In this document: one piece after another, positions 27,306 through 39,700 of the stretch
Position numbering within the stretch: position 1 is the stretch's first letter
How the letters are laid out: the number at the start of each line of letters is the position of its first letter
From: Paramecium tetraurelia
Taxonomy: Eukaryota; Ciliophora; Oligohymenophorea; Peniculida; Parameciidae
Assembly: GCF_000165425.1 (NCBI RefSeq)
Contig: NW_001798961.1
Coordinates: 124,001-188,000, forward strand
DNA: 64,000 nt
Direction of reading: 5' to 3'
Notes under the pieces: model-generated
Told to the model about the DNA's origin: nothing
Database searches by the model: none
What the model saw: only the letters and a program-made list of their open reading frames with translations
Translations under genes and position numbers: made by a program

Positions 27306-29755
27306 ATGAGCAAAACCAGCTTAATAGAAAATAATTTCAGTTTAAAATGCTTAAACCACTAGAAAGCTTAAGCACAATATTTTTGCTAATTACCTTAATG
27401 TCAATAACATAGAATATTTTGTGAGAAATGTCTAAATGATTTTCATTCCCAACACTCTGATTCAATATGTCATCTATCAAAGCTGTTTCTATTACTTGAT
27501 GAAAAGTCCCTAAAAGCAGAATAAATCCTGCAATCATATTACAATTAATTCAAAAGTCTATAAGAACATTTTAGTGTCACAATTAGAGGATTGCGATATA
27601 TGTTCGGAGGGCTGTCAAATGATTTATTAGAGCTTGATTAGAATCAAATTATTTAGTTTCTTGACCAATTAATTCACTTTGACGAAATAAACTAATTATA
27701 TAGAGATTAAGTAGAGAGCAAATTACACAAGATCTTGGAAATTCTGAACCAAATATTTTCAAAGTTACCATTACAAGATATTGCATATAGGATACCCTAA
27801 GATTTAGCACAAAAACTATAAAAATATTAAAATTTTGGTTAAATCATTAAAATATATTAGGCATGCAATTAAAAGAATAAGGTCTTTATAGTGAGGCTAT
27901 GATCTAATTTGATAGAGTACTTGAGATAAGCCCGTATAATATCAATGTTTTGTTTGAAAAAGGCATATTATTATATTAATATCTAAATAGGAGAGTGTTT
28001 AATGAAATAGAATTAAGAATATGAAGCATATCTTAAATATAAAGAAATAATTTTCTTAGATTCAAAACATTAGTAAGCTTTATGCAGAATAGGTAAATTA
28101 CATTTTAATATTTAAGGCAGTTACCTATTTAAGTGCAATAAATATAATGAAGCATAAGAGTATTTTTCAAAATGCCTATGCATCAACTAAAATAATTATG
28201 AAGCTCTGTTAGGCTATGGTAAAGTTGATTTATATTTAAAGCTGACACTCTAAGATTACAGAATTAATTAATATTGGCAAATTATAATTATGAAAGAGCG
28301 ATTAATATTAATTCATTGGATTATTAAGTGTTTTATGGAAGAGGTATACAAAAGAATCTCATGTTAAAAAGGGGTATGCTTAAAGAGTTTGAATGATTTC
28401 GAGAATTCCTAGAAAATGTTTAAAAAAGCGTTAATGCTAAACTAAAGCCATTTTGAGTCATTATTCAGTTTAGGTTATAAAAATGTGTTATTTTAGCGGA
28501 TTACTTAAGATAAGTAGATAAATACATTGAAGCCATAGCATATTTTGATCAGGCTTTGTAAATTAAACCTCAGCATCCAGAATTATGGGAAGGAAAAGGT
28601 TATTAGATCATCATAAAATTAGCCTTTTGCTTAAGAGAGTTAAACGATAATGAAGAAGCAGTAAATTGCTATGAAAAAGCTCTGAAATACGACCCTACTT
28701 CTTATGAGGCCTTGAAAGGAATGGGTTAATAAGATCAATTAATTTAATAGGTTTAAGCTTACGAAAGTTATATAAATGCGATGAATCAATTGTTTTTTTT
28801 GAAAAAGCACTTTAAATCCAGCCAAATAATGTATTTTCTCTAAAGGGAAAAGGTCTTAAACTTCAATATTAATAGCTGAATGCTTAAGATTGCAGGGAAA
28901 ATGGGAAGAGGCCTTAAAGTATTATTCATGGGTTTTGCATATTCATCCTGGTTAACACAGGGCTTTGTTTTTCAAATGTATAATTAAATTTAAAGGTCAT
29001 TTCACTAGCTTAAATGGAATCAATAGTGACAACTTTAAGGTAACATGAAAACGATATTATTCTTAATCCTCAAAACACTAATCCAATTTTTGGAAAAGGT
29101 TACTCTTCTTACTATATTTTTAGCCGAGTGTCTAAGGATGCTAAATGATTTTGATGGAGCTCTGTAATTTTATATGAAAACTTTATAAATTGATCCTAAT
29201 CACATTAATTCCTTAATAGGATATGGTAAACATAATTGAAATTTTAGGCTTTTGCTTAGGATACTAAAATAAATTTCAATTGGCTTTAGAATAATATGAT
29301 AAAGCCTTAACTTTGAATAAATACTCAACAGATGCACTCTGGGGGAAAGGTTAAATTTCTAAATATCATAGGGGAATGTTTAAGAATGCTGATGGATTTT
29401 AATAATGCCTTAGTTTATTATGAAAAAGTCTTGATACTTTATCCTTGCCATTATATTTCATTAAGTGGAAAAGGTAAGAAATGTGTAAAATTAGGTGATT
29501 GCTTAAGGATGCTTGGTTTGTACCAACAGGCTCTAGATGTATATAAGTAGGCACTCTTCATATAAAGTAACTAACCAAGTTTACTATATGGTAAAGGTAA
29601 AAATAATTATAAATTCAGCTGTTTGTCTAATAGCTCAAAATAATTTTGAAACTGCGCCTGATTTGTTAAGGTAGGCAAAAAAAGTTGCACCTCCAAACTT
29701 TTTTGTAGATAAAGCAATTTGTATTATTAACTTTACATCATTTAGAATTTTGTGA
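27306..29755 (+). CDS. B-box + tandem TPR protein with one intron per repeat
   Basis: ATG at 27306, TGA at 29753-29755. The N-terminus has a B-box-like zinc cluster (CLNHQKAQAQYFCQLPQCQQ HR..FCEKCLNDFHSQH, split here for length) and a helical linker. From 27838 on the gene is about 15 TPR units of 34 residues, for example DYLRQVDKYIEAIAYFDQAL QIKPQHPELWEGKG. Each repeat ends in G-K-G, and an intron of 21-28 nt sits in the same Gly codon each time. Donors are at 27838, 27963 (GC rather than GT), 28093, 28219, 28344, 28474, 28599, 28725, 28853, 28978, 29099, 29226, 29350, 29474 and 29597. The last repeat is followed by a short tail ending NFTSFRIL. TPRs mediate protein-protein contacts; the partner is unknown. 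Confidence 0.8.
27963..29618 (+). repeat. Tandem exon-intron TPR unit, period about 125 bp
   Basis: Each unit is 102 bp of coding sequence (34 residues) plus one 21-28 nt intron. Distances between successive intron donors are 130, 126, 125, 130, 125, 126, 128, 125, 121, 127, 124, 124 and 123 bp. The constant intron position shows that the intron was copied together with the repeat rather than gained separately. Confidence 0.85.
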
Positions 29756-30433
29756 ATTCAAAAAATAAATCCTAGAAATATGTTTAGAAATCATCATAAA
29801 TGAGAATTCAACAAAGATTAGTTGAATATTATTTTAATATTATTATAAATATACAATTAAATTAAATATATTAAATAATATTACTGATCATTAGAAAAAT
29901 TAGTATTGTGCAAATTTTCTGAAATGATAAAAATTAGTATGCATCATTATAATTTCATTTCGAATTCGATTTGCTTAAATTTTCATCTTACTCTATGACA
30001 AAAATAAATGAGTTATTTGTAAAATAAAAAAAGCTATCAAAGTTTCTTCATTTTTAATTTGAGAGTTTAGATTCCTTTACATTAGATTTGTAATAAAATG
30101 AGATGTTAATTGTTGTTTTAAATAATCTGTAAATTTTTTAAGATCAATCCTCTACTTATGTCTCATGAACAATTTACAAGATTTTCTTCTAAATTTTAAA
30201 GCTCATCTTTTTCTATTATTTTAATACATACATTCAAACAAACTAATCAATCTTGGAAAGCAGAATACTACCTAATTGTTAATCAAGTCTTATAAAATTT
30301 GGTTTACATAAGAGCTTCAAATTCTTAATTATCAAATTAACAAGATCAATATCACTCTATGGTAGGGGAAAAGTTTATATACTTAAAAATATAGAGTAAC
30401 ACGAAAGAGATAAAGTTAATTGCATCACTTTTT
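29756..30433. other. Intergenic between convergent TPR genes; possible decayed coding pieces
   Basis: AT-rich. Short minus-strand stretches look weakly protein-like (for example KDELQNLEENLVNCS near 30190), but none extends to a gene I can support. It may hold decayed remains of a TPR-family copy. Confidence 0.35.
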
Positions 30434-31540
30434 TCATTATATTCGACAAAATATATAAATATGAGAGTGTGTATACGTTGATTAGTTTTTATTCTTTAAA
30501 ATATTGATTAAAAGTTTATAAAATAATTTATAAGACCACTATGATAATGCATCATAACTTTGATAGTTGGTATTTTATAAAAGCATCCTGAAACCCATTT
30601 CCTATGCGGCAAAATAAAAGTATTTAGCTTCTGATTTCCTTTATAATTCTAATAATGAATCAGCTAAAAAGAAAATTACAGAATAATTTACCTTTACATT
30701 TAAATCTAGAAGCATCAGTTTTTATTTTAAGGGCTTGTTCAAAATTTTAGAGTGCATCCATATTTTTCTATATTTTTTGTAGGATTAAATCTGAATAAAA
30801 AAAATATTAACCTTTCCTTTCATATGACGAATCAAATTTTGGATTAAAAGATATTGCTTCATCATAACATTCAATTTCTTCTTGATATTGTTTCAATTAG
30901 TTTAATGCACGACCTAAATAATAATATTAAACAATTAATTGCCCTTGCAAGTCCAAGTAATTTCAGATTTAGGATTAATAGATATAGCTTTATTGTAACA
31001 TTAAATTGCTTCTTCATATTAATTCTAATCGCCTAATGTAATTCCTAATTATCATAATTTTACAATTAATTACCTTTCAAAAACCATGAATAATCATTTT
31101 TAGGATTTATAGAAATTCATTGAAACATTGAATAGCTTAATGATATTGATACAAATTGCCTAATGCAAATCCTAAATATTAATAATTAACAATGAATTAC
31201 CTTTGCCATTCAATGCAGTGTCAGATTAATGGTTAATGGAAATAGTTTCGTTGTAACAATTAATTGCTTCTTGATATTGCTTCAATTTGGTTAATGCATC
31301 ACCTAAAATTTTAAAATAATATAAATTACCCTTGCCAATATATGCAGAATCATATTTAGGATTAATAAATATGGCTTAATTATAAAATAAAATTGCTTCT
31401 TGATATTAATTTGAATTGTATAATGCAGATCCTAAATATTATATTTAACAATTTACTACCCTTATCATACCACACTTATTCTTCTTAAGAATTAATAGAA
31501 AAAATAATGATTATAATTAATTATACATTTTTCTTTTAAT
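30434..31540 (-). CDS. TPR-repeat protein with one intron per repeat; 5' end unresolved, perhaps a pseudogene
   Basis: Minus strand. A frame of about seven TPR units reads NSQEEQVWYDKG, SALYNSNQYQEAILFYNQAI FINPKYDSAYIGKG, DALTKLKQYQEAINCYNETI, FALGNLYQYHQAIQCF, ending ADSLLELQRKSEAKYFYF and a possible stop at 30434-30436. Introns sit in the same GKG position as in the neighbouring gene, with donors near 31459, 31329, 31200, 31073, 30942, 30811 and 30691. That at 30942 reads GC instead of GT. Upstream (to about 31640) only a fragment of a B-box-like pattern is seen (CIEKHNDLKVMQC) followed by a stop in that frame. The start is therefore not found and the gene may be decayed. It is convergent with the first TPR gene and a clear paralogue. 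Confidence 0.55.
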
Positions 31541-36770: not shown

Positions 36771-39700
36771 AATTTTAAAAATTAACTCTTTTTTCTTAAG
36801 CTATTCACCATCATACTTGGTCTTTATGCTTACAAAATACTGGATCGAATAACCATTTTATTGGTTTAAGTCTTTGTTTATGAACTCTTCATAGAAGAAG
36901 GTATAACATCAGCCTTTTATTATTATTGTTATTATTGCTATTATTATTCTTATTGTTTTTTTGTATTTTATTATTATTACTATTATTATTTCTATTGTTT
37001 AAGCTCTTCCTCTCTTATCTTATCTCGTTATTATTTAATGCATCTTAAAAATTTCATTAACTTTTCTCCGAATTTATCACTTGCATCAGCAGGATTCTCG
37101 CATAAAAATTTAGCTGTCTTTTTATAATCCGTGTCCAATTTTTGTATTTTTAATTCCAAATCCTTGGTATTCTCTTATAATTTTGATTATACATCCTTCA
37201 AAGTATCAACAATTTTATCATTTTCATCATTTGATTTGCATTCAATTGCTTTAGATACTGTATTCAGACCTTTTTTAATTTCATTTAAATTTGTGTTCAG
37301 TTGAGTTATAGGTAATTTAGTAATGATATCAAATCTGTCCAAATCTATCTCTTCATTGAACTTAATCTGCTTAATAATATATTATAGAACATTAGATTTA
37401 TTATCTAAGCCTTTCACATCAGTTAATTTTTCAATTTATTCTAATTTGAATCCCCAAGCTCCTCCTTTGGCAGATTAACCATTCAGATAATTACCAACAG
37501 CCAACGAATATTCAATCAATTAAGTAACCCATCCCATGGCAAGTAAATCATTAAACACATCAAGTGAAGTAATTTAAGCATCTAGATCCGTTACGTATTC
37601 AACGTATTAGCAAGAAAATTTAAGGGCTTTAATTCTGATAGAGAATCCCTTTAATTGGGAAATCTTCAGGATGTATTTCTCCGGATTACCAAGCAATTCT
37701 TTATCTCCATCGTAACCCTGCACAGTTCCTATTTCATCTTCTGTTGGTGTGATTACATCTAAACTTTCTAGTGTTGGTAATGTTAGGATTTTTTCATCAC
37801 ATTTAATCAAAGCTTCATATAATAAAGTTGGAGATATTTTCAATTTCATCAAGACTAACTCCATATTCTTTTATCTCTCAGGTTGCAGTAAGGAGATTTT
37901 TTAAGGCTAAGCTGATTAGGATTTAGGATTTGAATCTGCTTATTGAGCTTATTGTTTTTTTGAGAATTCTTTTTCTAAAAATTCAATATCCAATTTCACA
38001 TCTAAATCCTTGATATTCTCAAATATAGTATCTTTTATTTATGCTTTTTAAGTGATTATCGTCCATTAAACAGGTTTCATAGGAACGCTGGGATTTTATT
38101 TTTATTTTAAGCCTTAATTTTGTGGCTATGGAGGAGCTCCAAAAGGGGGAGGTGGTGCAGATCCTCCAGGTGGTTATGGAGCTCCTGGAGGAGGAGGTGG
38201 TGGAGGACCACCTGCTTTACTACCAGGAGGAGGTGGTGGTGGAGGGGGACCTCCAGGAGGACGGGGAACTCCTGGAGGAGGTGGTGGAGGTGGAGGTCCT
38301 GCTTTCATGGGCGGTGGTGGAGGAGGAGGAGGTGCTGCAATTTTTGGAGGAGGAGGTGGTGGAGGTAAAGGAGCTGATTTAACTGGAGGAGGAGGGGGAG
38401 GTGGAGGAGGAGGAAGTGAAGGAGCATTTGGAGGTTATTGGGGCACTGATTAAGAAGTATTTGAAGGCCCAGCGGCTTAAATAGTTTAGTTAAGTTTTTC
38501 AAGGTTCTTAATTTGATTTTAAAGTTTCTCAATTTCTTTTGATTACTCAATATTTTGAGCTTCTTTTAAGATTGTTTAGGCTTTGATAGTTTCTAATTCT
38601 TTGGTTAATTTATCAATTTAACTTAGATATTCTTATTGCAAGGAATTGGTTTGAGTAATTTTTTCATTTAGTTTAATAACTTCCTATTCTTTTGAAGTTA
38701 GCTACATTTGGGCCTGCTTTTAACCCTGGATTATTGATTTAATTTATTTTTCTAAGTCTCTAATGGATTGCTGTGCTTTTTCGTAATCCTCATAGATTTG
38801 ATCATGTTTAGGAATCTCAATAATTTCATCATCTTCTTCGTCTATAAGCAACCTTTAGAGAGCTTATTCACTCAATTCCCACATATCTCTCACTTTTAGA
38901 TTTGACATGAAATTTAAGATGGTTAGGAATTTACCGTAGGAATCGAGTTGTAGGGATTATTACTTAACAATATCAAAAAGCTTTTGATCTGAAAATTCAA
39001 TGATTTTGGTAGGTTTTCTTTCTGAATCAAATTCAAAGTTACGAATTTCCTTAATGATTTGCAAGAGGTCTTAAATAATGAAAAGTATTACTTTGTTGTT
39101 ATAATTGAAATGATGCTTCGTCATGTTTTTCTAAGTAAAATTGTGCCTCTCCTTCTTGAGGTAATTGGGTAAACTAAATAGTTTCAGTTTTAGATTGATC
39201 TTCACGAGATTCATTGAACAAAATGGGATTCTTAATGAAGGGTGATTTTTGTTTAAAGAAATGATCAACATTTTGATATTTAATCAACTTATTTTAGATA
39301 GATTCGTATGTACAAGCATCAATATTATATTCGTTGATTCTTTGTTCAATGAGCTTAAGGATGGCAGCAAAATTGTAAGGAGAGATGACAGAGGATTCTA
39401 ATTCATTTCTAATGTGAGGTTAGATATTTCGTAAGAATCCCAAGATATTGACTACCATCATGATGTTATCCGATTAGTACACAGTCCTAACAAAGATTTC
39501 AAGTCGATATTTTAATGAGTGATCTTTACGATAGGATGCGAAGGATTCTACAATATCTTCAACATTATCCTTATAAATTAGACCATTTTCACCAGCAAAG
39601 ATCTCCAAGACTAGGCAACTCATTTCTATGTGAACAGGGTGAAAATTAGCAAATATTATTCTGAAGGCTCCAGGAATGGAAGATAAGTCATCGCTTGCTA

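Follow-up and report, generated by a model that had tools for sequence, protein, structure and literature searches.

A TPR gene of Paramecium tetraurelia with one tiny intron per repeat, and the class of exon–intron arrays to which it probably belongs

Here we describe a gene, called gene A, in a 64,000-nucleotide window of the Paramecium tetraurelia genome (positions 124001–188000 of a 304-kb contig, NW_001798961.1), in which tetratricopeptide repeat (TPR) units are separated from one another by introns of less than 30 nt, together with a set of genes elsewhere in the same assembly that suggest how such an arrangement could have come about. Gene A lies on the forward strand between an ATG at 27306 and a TGA at 29753–29755 (window 27306–29755; positions are those of the window) and is read with TAA and TAG as Gln and TGA as the sole stop codon (code 6). 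Its complete set of 15 introns is a manual model, and the parts to which we refer below are these.

Gene A and its splice geometry

27306–27837, + strand: first exon of gene A, 532 bp, 177 residues ahead of the first TPR unit, open under code 6
27838–27860, + strand: intron 1, 23 nt, GT-AG, phase 1
27963–27990, + strand: intron 2, 28 nt, GC-AG, phase 1; retention shifts the frame; its counterpart in the duplicate gene of region L002 is GT-AG
28093–28116, + strand: intron 3, 24 nt
28219–28241, + strand: intron 4, 23 nt
28344–28371, + strand: intron 5, 28 nt
28474–28496, + strand: intron 6, 23 nt
28599–28622, + strand: intron 7, 24 nt
28725–28750, + strand: intron 8, 26 nt
28853–28875, + strand: intron 9, 23 nt
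28978–28995, + strand: intron 10, 18 nt, which follows T instead of G and splits a Cys codon; the weakest of the 15
28996–29098, + strand: exon 10, 103 bp, frameshifted, with an in-frame TGA at 29046–29048
29099–29123, + strand: intron 11, 25 nt
29226–29247, + strand: intron 12, 22 nt
29350–29371, + strand: intron 13, 22 nt
29474–29494, + strand: intron 14, 21 nt
29597–29618, + strand: intron 15, 22 nt
29619–29755, + strand: last exon, ending at the TGA of 29753–29755

The 15 donors run from 27838 to 29597 at a mean spacing of 125.64 bp (range 121–130), in agreement with an earlier reading of the letters alone (the sequence-only reading), which had counted 15 donors about 125.6 bp apart over 27838–29618. 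Fourteen of the introns are GT-AG and one is GC-AG, all 15 are in phase 1 in the spliced reading of the manual model, and the exons that lie between them are exactly 102 bp long in 13 of 14 cases, the exception being exon 10. A run of nine consecutive 102-bp exons places gene A among uniform-exon genes, defined by at least three consecutive exons of the same length in one phase, and through exon 9 the spliced gene reads as 483 codons with 25 TAA, 6 TAG and no TGA. The sequence-only reading was right that position and phase are constant while intron sequences differ, the introns being as dissimilar as shuffled ones; the lengths that it gave as 21–28 nt are indeed very short, with an actual range of 18–28 nt. 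Beyond exon 9 the gene may be broken, at exon 10, or it may be spliced differently there.

That the units are TPRs is indicated by PF00515 (TPR_1), which scores 130.4 and 86.2 bits on two unbroken spliced pieces of gene A (cut-off 27.8). In an alignment to this Pfam model the exon-11 unit begins at position 8, and the 102-bp register puts the other units there as well; the intron therefore falls within helix A and not, as had been thought, at the end of the repeat. Each exon of gene A is thus a rotated repeat and not an end-to-end TPR, and presumably takes in the tail of one helix A, helix B and the first part of the following helix A. Nor is the intron always inside the Gly codon of a G-K-G, as first supposed: the split codon is Gly in eight cases, Ala in six and Cys in one, a variation that arises because only the first base of the codon precedes the intron, and G-K is found before the intron in only some repeats. 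Ahead of the units, the N-terminus is rich in Cys and His, and the spliced reading runs on from it into the TPRs. By eye, the Cys/His pattern of 27306–27837 resembles what we take to be a zinc-binding B-box, without a Pfam match; at E ≤ 0.01, with one best stretch per family shown, no Pfam family has its best stretch in residues 1–168. No match to NB-ARC was obtained in gene A at that threshold, and a ROC-COR partner domain is likewise not shown by Pfam.

The placement of the introns was also examined with a spliced-alignment scan in which an intron of 16–36 nt costs the same at every position and in every phase; its repeat profile was trained on gene A and then on all units found, so that it is tuned to the repeats but not to where the introns lie. 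Over 27838–29760 the score was 463.6 with introns allowed and 62.7 with introns forbidden, and 40 dinucleotide shuffles of the region gave at most 20.6. Thirteen of the 15 introns were recovered automatically, since the scan started 3' of intron 1 and read through the 18-nt intron 10, and one 19-nt intron was put within the exon-10 region. A version of the scan restricted to GT donors had placed two introns at other sites, which were taken as artefacts, and GC donors were then admitted.

It is scarcely credible, in our judgement, that the gaps are something other than introns, namely internal eliminated sequences (IESs) of the germline left in the assembly, or coding linkers. They are AT-rich, with 15% GC inside, and Paramecium has IESs of much the same size; however, the smallest IESs known are of 26 nt and 12 of the 15 gaps are shorter than that. 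The gaps have GT or GC and AG ends at a fixed phase, and 11 of the 15 have lengths that are not divisible by three, so that read-through would shift the frame. Fourteen of the 15 also fall in the size range of Paramecium-type short introns, 20–35 nt, which holds 99.9% of P. tetraurelia introns (PMC5663052), and their removal by the spliceosome is the predicted outcome.

Intron-bearing TPR arrays across the genome

The genome assembly (G000, 69.07 Mb) was searched with PF00515, and the 150 candidates scored out of 950 gave 74 gene clusters by eye, among the matches listed. Twenty regions were read from these 74 clusters in order of E-value (18 of 9.9 kb, one of 9.0 kb and one of 5.1 kb), and were picked with the spacing of the PF00515 hits in view but before any introns in the fetched regions had been seen; together with the window and L002 they provide 26 TPR stretches. 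Across these, 172 of 215 introns lie at the one site used in gene A, in phase 1, and occupy 172 of 367 unit boundaries. Most are concentrated in 15 array stretches, where 165 of 169 introns are at the site (192 boundaries), whereas in the other 11 stretches 7 of 46 are (175 boundaries). Occupancy is complete in L035 (18/18 boundaries), L047 (20/20) and L046 (9/9), high in L044 (25/28) and L049+ (22/26), and lower in L034 (4/9) and L041 (4/6); gene A has 15 such introns and L044 at least 25. There are also TPR arrays with none: L038 and L042 each have 0 of 39 boundaries occupied and three introns elsewhere, and L051 and L040, with 17 boundaries each, have no introns at the site.

In the 14 genes with at least four introns at the site, 129 of the 148 exons between introns are 102 bp long and 135 are multiples of 102, including six of 204 or 306 bp, the lengths that the loss or original absence of introns would give. 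The 165 array introns are 20–36 nt long (within the scan range of 16–36 nt), with insides of 15% GC. Four of them have a GC donor: window 27963, window 30942 on the reverse strand, and two in the young L035 array. Lengths divisible by three are rarer than expected (32 of 165, p = 9e-5, a value to be read with the non-independence of homologous introns in mind), and a deficit of this kind has been reported as evidence that the introns of Paramecium are under selection (PMC5485702, PMC11334263).

The extra length can also be seen in hit coordinates. In 59 pairs of neighbouring TPR hits, each unit is longer by 17–34 bases in 27 cases and no longer at all in 21, the remaining 11 giving other values, while WD40 repeats of the same genome, used as a control, have no extra length in 97 of 104 neighbour pairs (141 of 150 listed rows, the nine omitted having no neighbour within range in the list). 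A MORN control was uninformative, since 13 of its 26 neighbour pairs were in neither class (51 of 150 rows, those with a neighbour). On contig C24, 17 of 22 steps in a TPR array have a spacing of 129 bp (23 hits among the matches listed, counted as rows at query position 1, with four other C24 rows omitted). This array, at G000:C24:252272-256261, has about 30 units spaced by almost exactly 129 bp, and 21 of its 23 counted hits contain TGA, as would fit introns of 27 nt with an in-frame stop.

On the opposite strand, some 1 kb away from gene A, there is a second array.

30434–31459, − strand: gene B, TPR array with seven introns of 21–29 nt; its 5' limit is provisional

The introns of gene B have the same site and phase as those of gene A and include one GC-AG intron (window 30942, −). 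In the manual table its exons are of 102, 102, 98 (frameshift), 102, 102 and 99 bp, and the last exon is open to the TGA at 30434. Tandem Repeats Finder gives a period of 127–131, and the automatic scan detects six of the seven introns.

Copying of exons with their introns, and the age of gene A

If exon and intron were copied together, units whose exons are similar should have similar introns, and this test could be run on 12 of the 14 genes, several of them with few pairs. In L047, L035, L052 and L046, introns taken from different units resemble one another more than they do after shuffling, and the more similar two exons are, the more similar are their introns (correlation 0.50–0.67, permutation p 0.0005–0.016); the introns of gene B are alike, yet its correlation of 0.57 has p = 0.10. 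Among the 65 pairs of units with an exon identity of at least 0.85, which are not independent (14 from L047, 41 from L035, 8 from L052 and 2 from L046), mean identity is 0.88 for the exon, 0.80 for the upstream intron and 0.83 for the downstream intron, ends included. The clearest case is L046, where units 1 and 5 share 96% identity and the very same introns, units 2 and 6 share 93% identity, and the exons of units 3 and 7 are only 68% alike; these identities indicate that two adjacent units were copied, with their introns, to a place four units away.

The results support the exon plus its intron as the unit of duplication for the class, as the sequence-only reading had proposed for gene A, in which there is no such signal. 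Aligning the 15 units and introns of gene A, as that reading had suggested, bore out the constant geometry and found introns no more alike than shuffled ones; for gene A itself, we infer co-duplication from its relatives. The proposal that repeat number can change by whole units fares similarly. By nearest unit, gene B and the genes of L046 and L035 have related last exons, yet their boundary introns number at least 6, 9 and 18, respectively, and repeat number therefore varies by whole units between relatives; gene A and its duplicate differ only by 15 units against 14.

This duplicate, in L002, provides a view of the age of the array; the gene upstream also appears, by eye, to have been duplicated. 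At the protein level, 11 of the 15 units of gene A have their best partner at the same rank in L002 (A1–A9, A12 and A15, the latter with the last of 14), and A10, A11, A13 and A14 do not. It is most likely, judging from this order of partners, that the array and its introns are older than the duplication of the two genes. At matched positions the introns of the two genes show no clear resemblance, with a mean of 0.58 compared with an overall 0.55 (p = 0.08). A second pair of duplicates behaves in much the same way, as units 5–16 of L044 match units 2–13 of L049+ in order, and the nearest unit lies in the same gene for 0 of 23 units in L044 and 0 of 20 in L049+.

Whether gene A is still a functional gene is a separate question. 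We consider it doubtful, but deserving of serious attention, that it is a pseudogene in decay, or that its product ends after nine TPR units and the later ones no longer make protein. This would account for the 103 bp of exon 10 and its TGA, and the state of the L002 gene points in the same direction: there the GT donor of intron 11 is lost, exon 10 is 90 bp long, exon 11 is, like exon 10 of gene A, a frameshifted exon of 103 bp, with a stop, and a 156-bp exon replaces units 13 and 14 of gene A and their intron. However, exons 11–14 of gene A retain their exact length, frame and splice sites, and the anomaly may be due to a further intron in exon 10 or to a base error there. Moreover, over 330 codons (10 unit pairs, none from exons 10–11) nonsynonymous divergence (dN) is 0.43 and synonymous divergence (dS) is 1.19, or dN/dS of about 0.36, and since dN is well under dS the proteins have been constrained for much of the time since the duplication. 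Beside the frameshifted unit of L002, at L002 2751–2768, lies a former intron of 18 nt whose GT donor is now AA and which is in frame without a stop; it is possible that it is now coding, an intron turned exon.

Three observations stand apart from these. The TPR clusters show a weak enrichment near contig ends (10 of 74 within 20 kb of a left end, 4.9 expected, p = 0.025; left ends only). WD40 arrays with a spacing of 126 bp and no intron-sized extra length lie within 20 kb of a left contig end in 15 of 42 clusters (2.8 expected, p = 4e-8), on contigs C213, C52, C108, C187, C223, C159, C216, C191, C222, C75, C60, C8, C205, C169 and C46 of G000; these may recall the hnwd non-self-recognition genes of Podospora, which are variable WD40 arrays under concerted evolution (PMC2873952). 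Finally, at window 38241–38424 there are short G-rich tandem repeats with units of 15–42 bp, GGAGGAGGA, in an otherwise AT-rich window.

Origin of the arrays and comparison with known systems

We propose, with a probability of roughly 0.8, that in this macronuclear genome there is a class of TPR genes, gene A being an old one among them, whose repeating DNA unit, tandemly multiplied, is a 102-bp exon together with a spliceosomal intron of 20–30 nt. In the evolutionary model that we favor, a TPR repeat with a phase-1 intron, placed between the first and second bases of its position-8 codon, would have been multiplied in tandem by one or several whole units per event, most likely through unequal recombination in the germline. 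Each gain or loss would keep the frame, the phase being equal at the two ends of the unit. The units would later diverge: whatever lies between the splice sites of the intron would drift to noise, as it seems to have done in gene A, but the splice sites themselves, the phase and the length of the exon would stay.

Several results weigh against this model, or against its extension to gene A. The intron–exon correlation is weak in L044 and L049+ (0.16 and 0.23, p = 0.02 and 0.009, for the downstream exon alone), and six genes (gene A, gene B, L002, L039, L043 and L049−) have no significant signal, the correlations in gene A being −0.11 and −0.08 with introns no more alike than when shuffled. By DNA score, the nearest unit lies inside gene A, and not in L002, for 5 of 12 gene A units. 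The division of TPR stretches into arrays and others was made by the intron feature itself, and across genes the array units form no clear group apart from other TPR units (permutation p = 0.14), so that a single origin of the intron-bearing unit is unsupported. Function is in doubt for three genes that have a frameshifted exon, namely gene A (exon 10), L002 (exon 11) and gene B (exon 3). Finally, the seven introns found at the site outside the arrays (two each in L033, L036 and L037, and one in the short L045−) exceed an even scatter, and therefore a preference for the site or an older shared ancestry is possible.

The last of these points would also be expected if a pre-existing TPR array had received its introns by repeated, independent insertion into one and the same proto-splice site (A-A-G, then G). 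The introns of gene A look unrelated, as such insertions would, and flanks such as AAAG or AGAG recur before the intron in many units. It is nevertheless an improbable account, since introns are homologous, and in places identical, across units of the young arrays, and since the TPR arrays of L038, L042, L051 and L040 exist without boundary introns. Multiplication of the exon together with its intron is the better description of the young arrays, and on that model a single genome would offer a series, from young arrays with recognizable copies of their introns to old arrays with noise between fixed splice sites, which would allow the rate of intron decay, and what is retained, to be measured.

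It had been suggested that exons of 102 bp that can be skipped without loss of frame would permit isoforms differing in their number of TPRs. That the design exists for this purpose now seems very improbable. Skipping would be frame-neutral, the repeat-exon arrays of brown-algal leucine-rich repeat (LRR) genes are reported to be alternatively spliced (PMC11378527), and in a study of P. bursaria exon skipping is among the event types counted, although intron retention and alternative 3' sites are the most frequent and the section cited gives no number for skipping (PMC12862383). However, an RNA-seq survey of P. tetraurelia saw no exon skipping (PMC5663052; repeated in PMC5485702), and argued that machinery recognizing only very short introns would preclude it; for this reason skipping is not expected here, where one skip in gene A requires the excision of about 150 nt. 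With skipping reported as absent in P. tetraurelia, frame-neutral exons are hard to attribute to the production of isoforms.

It is tempting to speculate further that these arrays are a second, independent case in ciliates of the mass amplification of an exon–intron unit, in which one intron-bearing TPR unit would have spread to dozens of genes and would still be expanding in some; with skipping largely precluded by the splicing machinery, its constant phase would serve, or result from, the evolution of repeat number and not of isoforms. We hold this tentatively, and would not back it at even odds. The known case is that of Tetrahymena, where thousands of LRR genes are built of 90-bp exons in tandem, separated by introns in phase 2 (PMC6564038); that 2019 paper describes the LRR genes of P. 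tetraurelia as having no 90-bp peak and suggests that the category evolved once. A second amplification, if true, would contradict the suggestion that uniform arrays evolved once, in Tetrahymena.

The Tetrahymena arrays and those described here are both in ciliate repeat-protein genes with uniform exons, a single phase and a tandem exon–intron unit, and in both there are old and young arrays in one genome and a variable number of repeats among paralogues. The arrays here differ from those of Tetrahymena in that they are TPR and not LRR, with exons of 102 and not 90 bp and in phase 1 and not phase 2, and in that their introns are of 18–36 nt, against peaks of about 56 to 257 bp in the LRR arrays (PMC6564038). 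Their introns are instead like the short introns of Paramecium at large, in length, in GT-AG ends and in the deficit of lengths divisible by three (PMC5663052, PMC5485702, PMC11334263, PMC12862383). Our literature search found no report of TPR arrays with one intron per repeat in Paramecium, which is weak evidence of absence as subscription papers were mostly outside the search.

Comparable arrangements occur further afield. The repeat exons of brown algae have reportedly been the subject of work by Zambounis (2012) and Teng (2023), both as cited in PMC11378527. In brown-algal ROCO genes the LRR exons are 72 bp long and in phase 2, and shuffling of TPR exons is described, by citation, for NB-ARC-TPR genes (PMC11378527); like those of gene A, these exons hold one repeat each in a constant phase, but alternative splicing of the repeat exons is reported and the genes encode NB-ARC or ROC-COR domains. 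The LRR exons of gonadotrophin receptors (cited in PMC11378527) also have a constant phase, as do the TPR arrays. Of the human protein repeats with changes between species, 26% place no more than one unit in an exon (Schaper et al., 2014; PMC3995336), and repeats with one exon per unit, such as some zinc fingers, are gained and lost by whole exons as we propose here, although in animal genes and in other repeat families. The kind of gene is already known; what is new here is an array of TPRs in 102-bp exons, separated by tiny introns that are all in phase 1.
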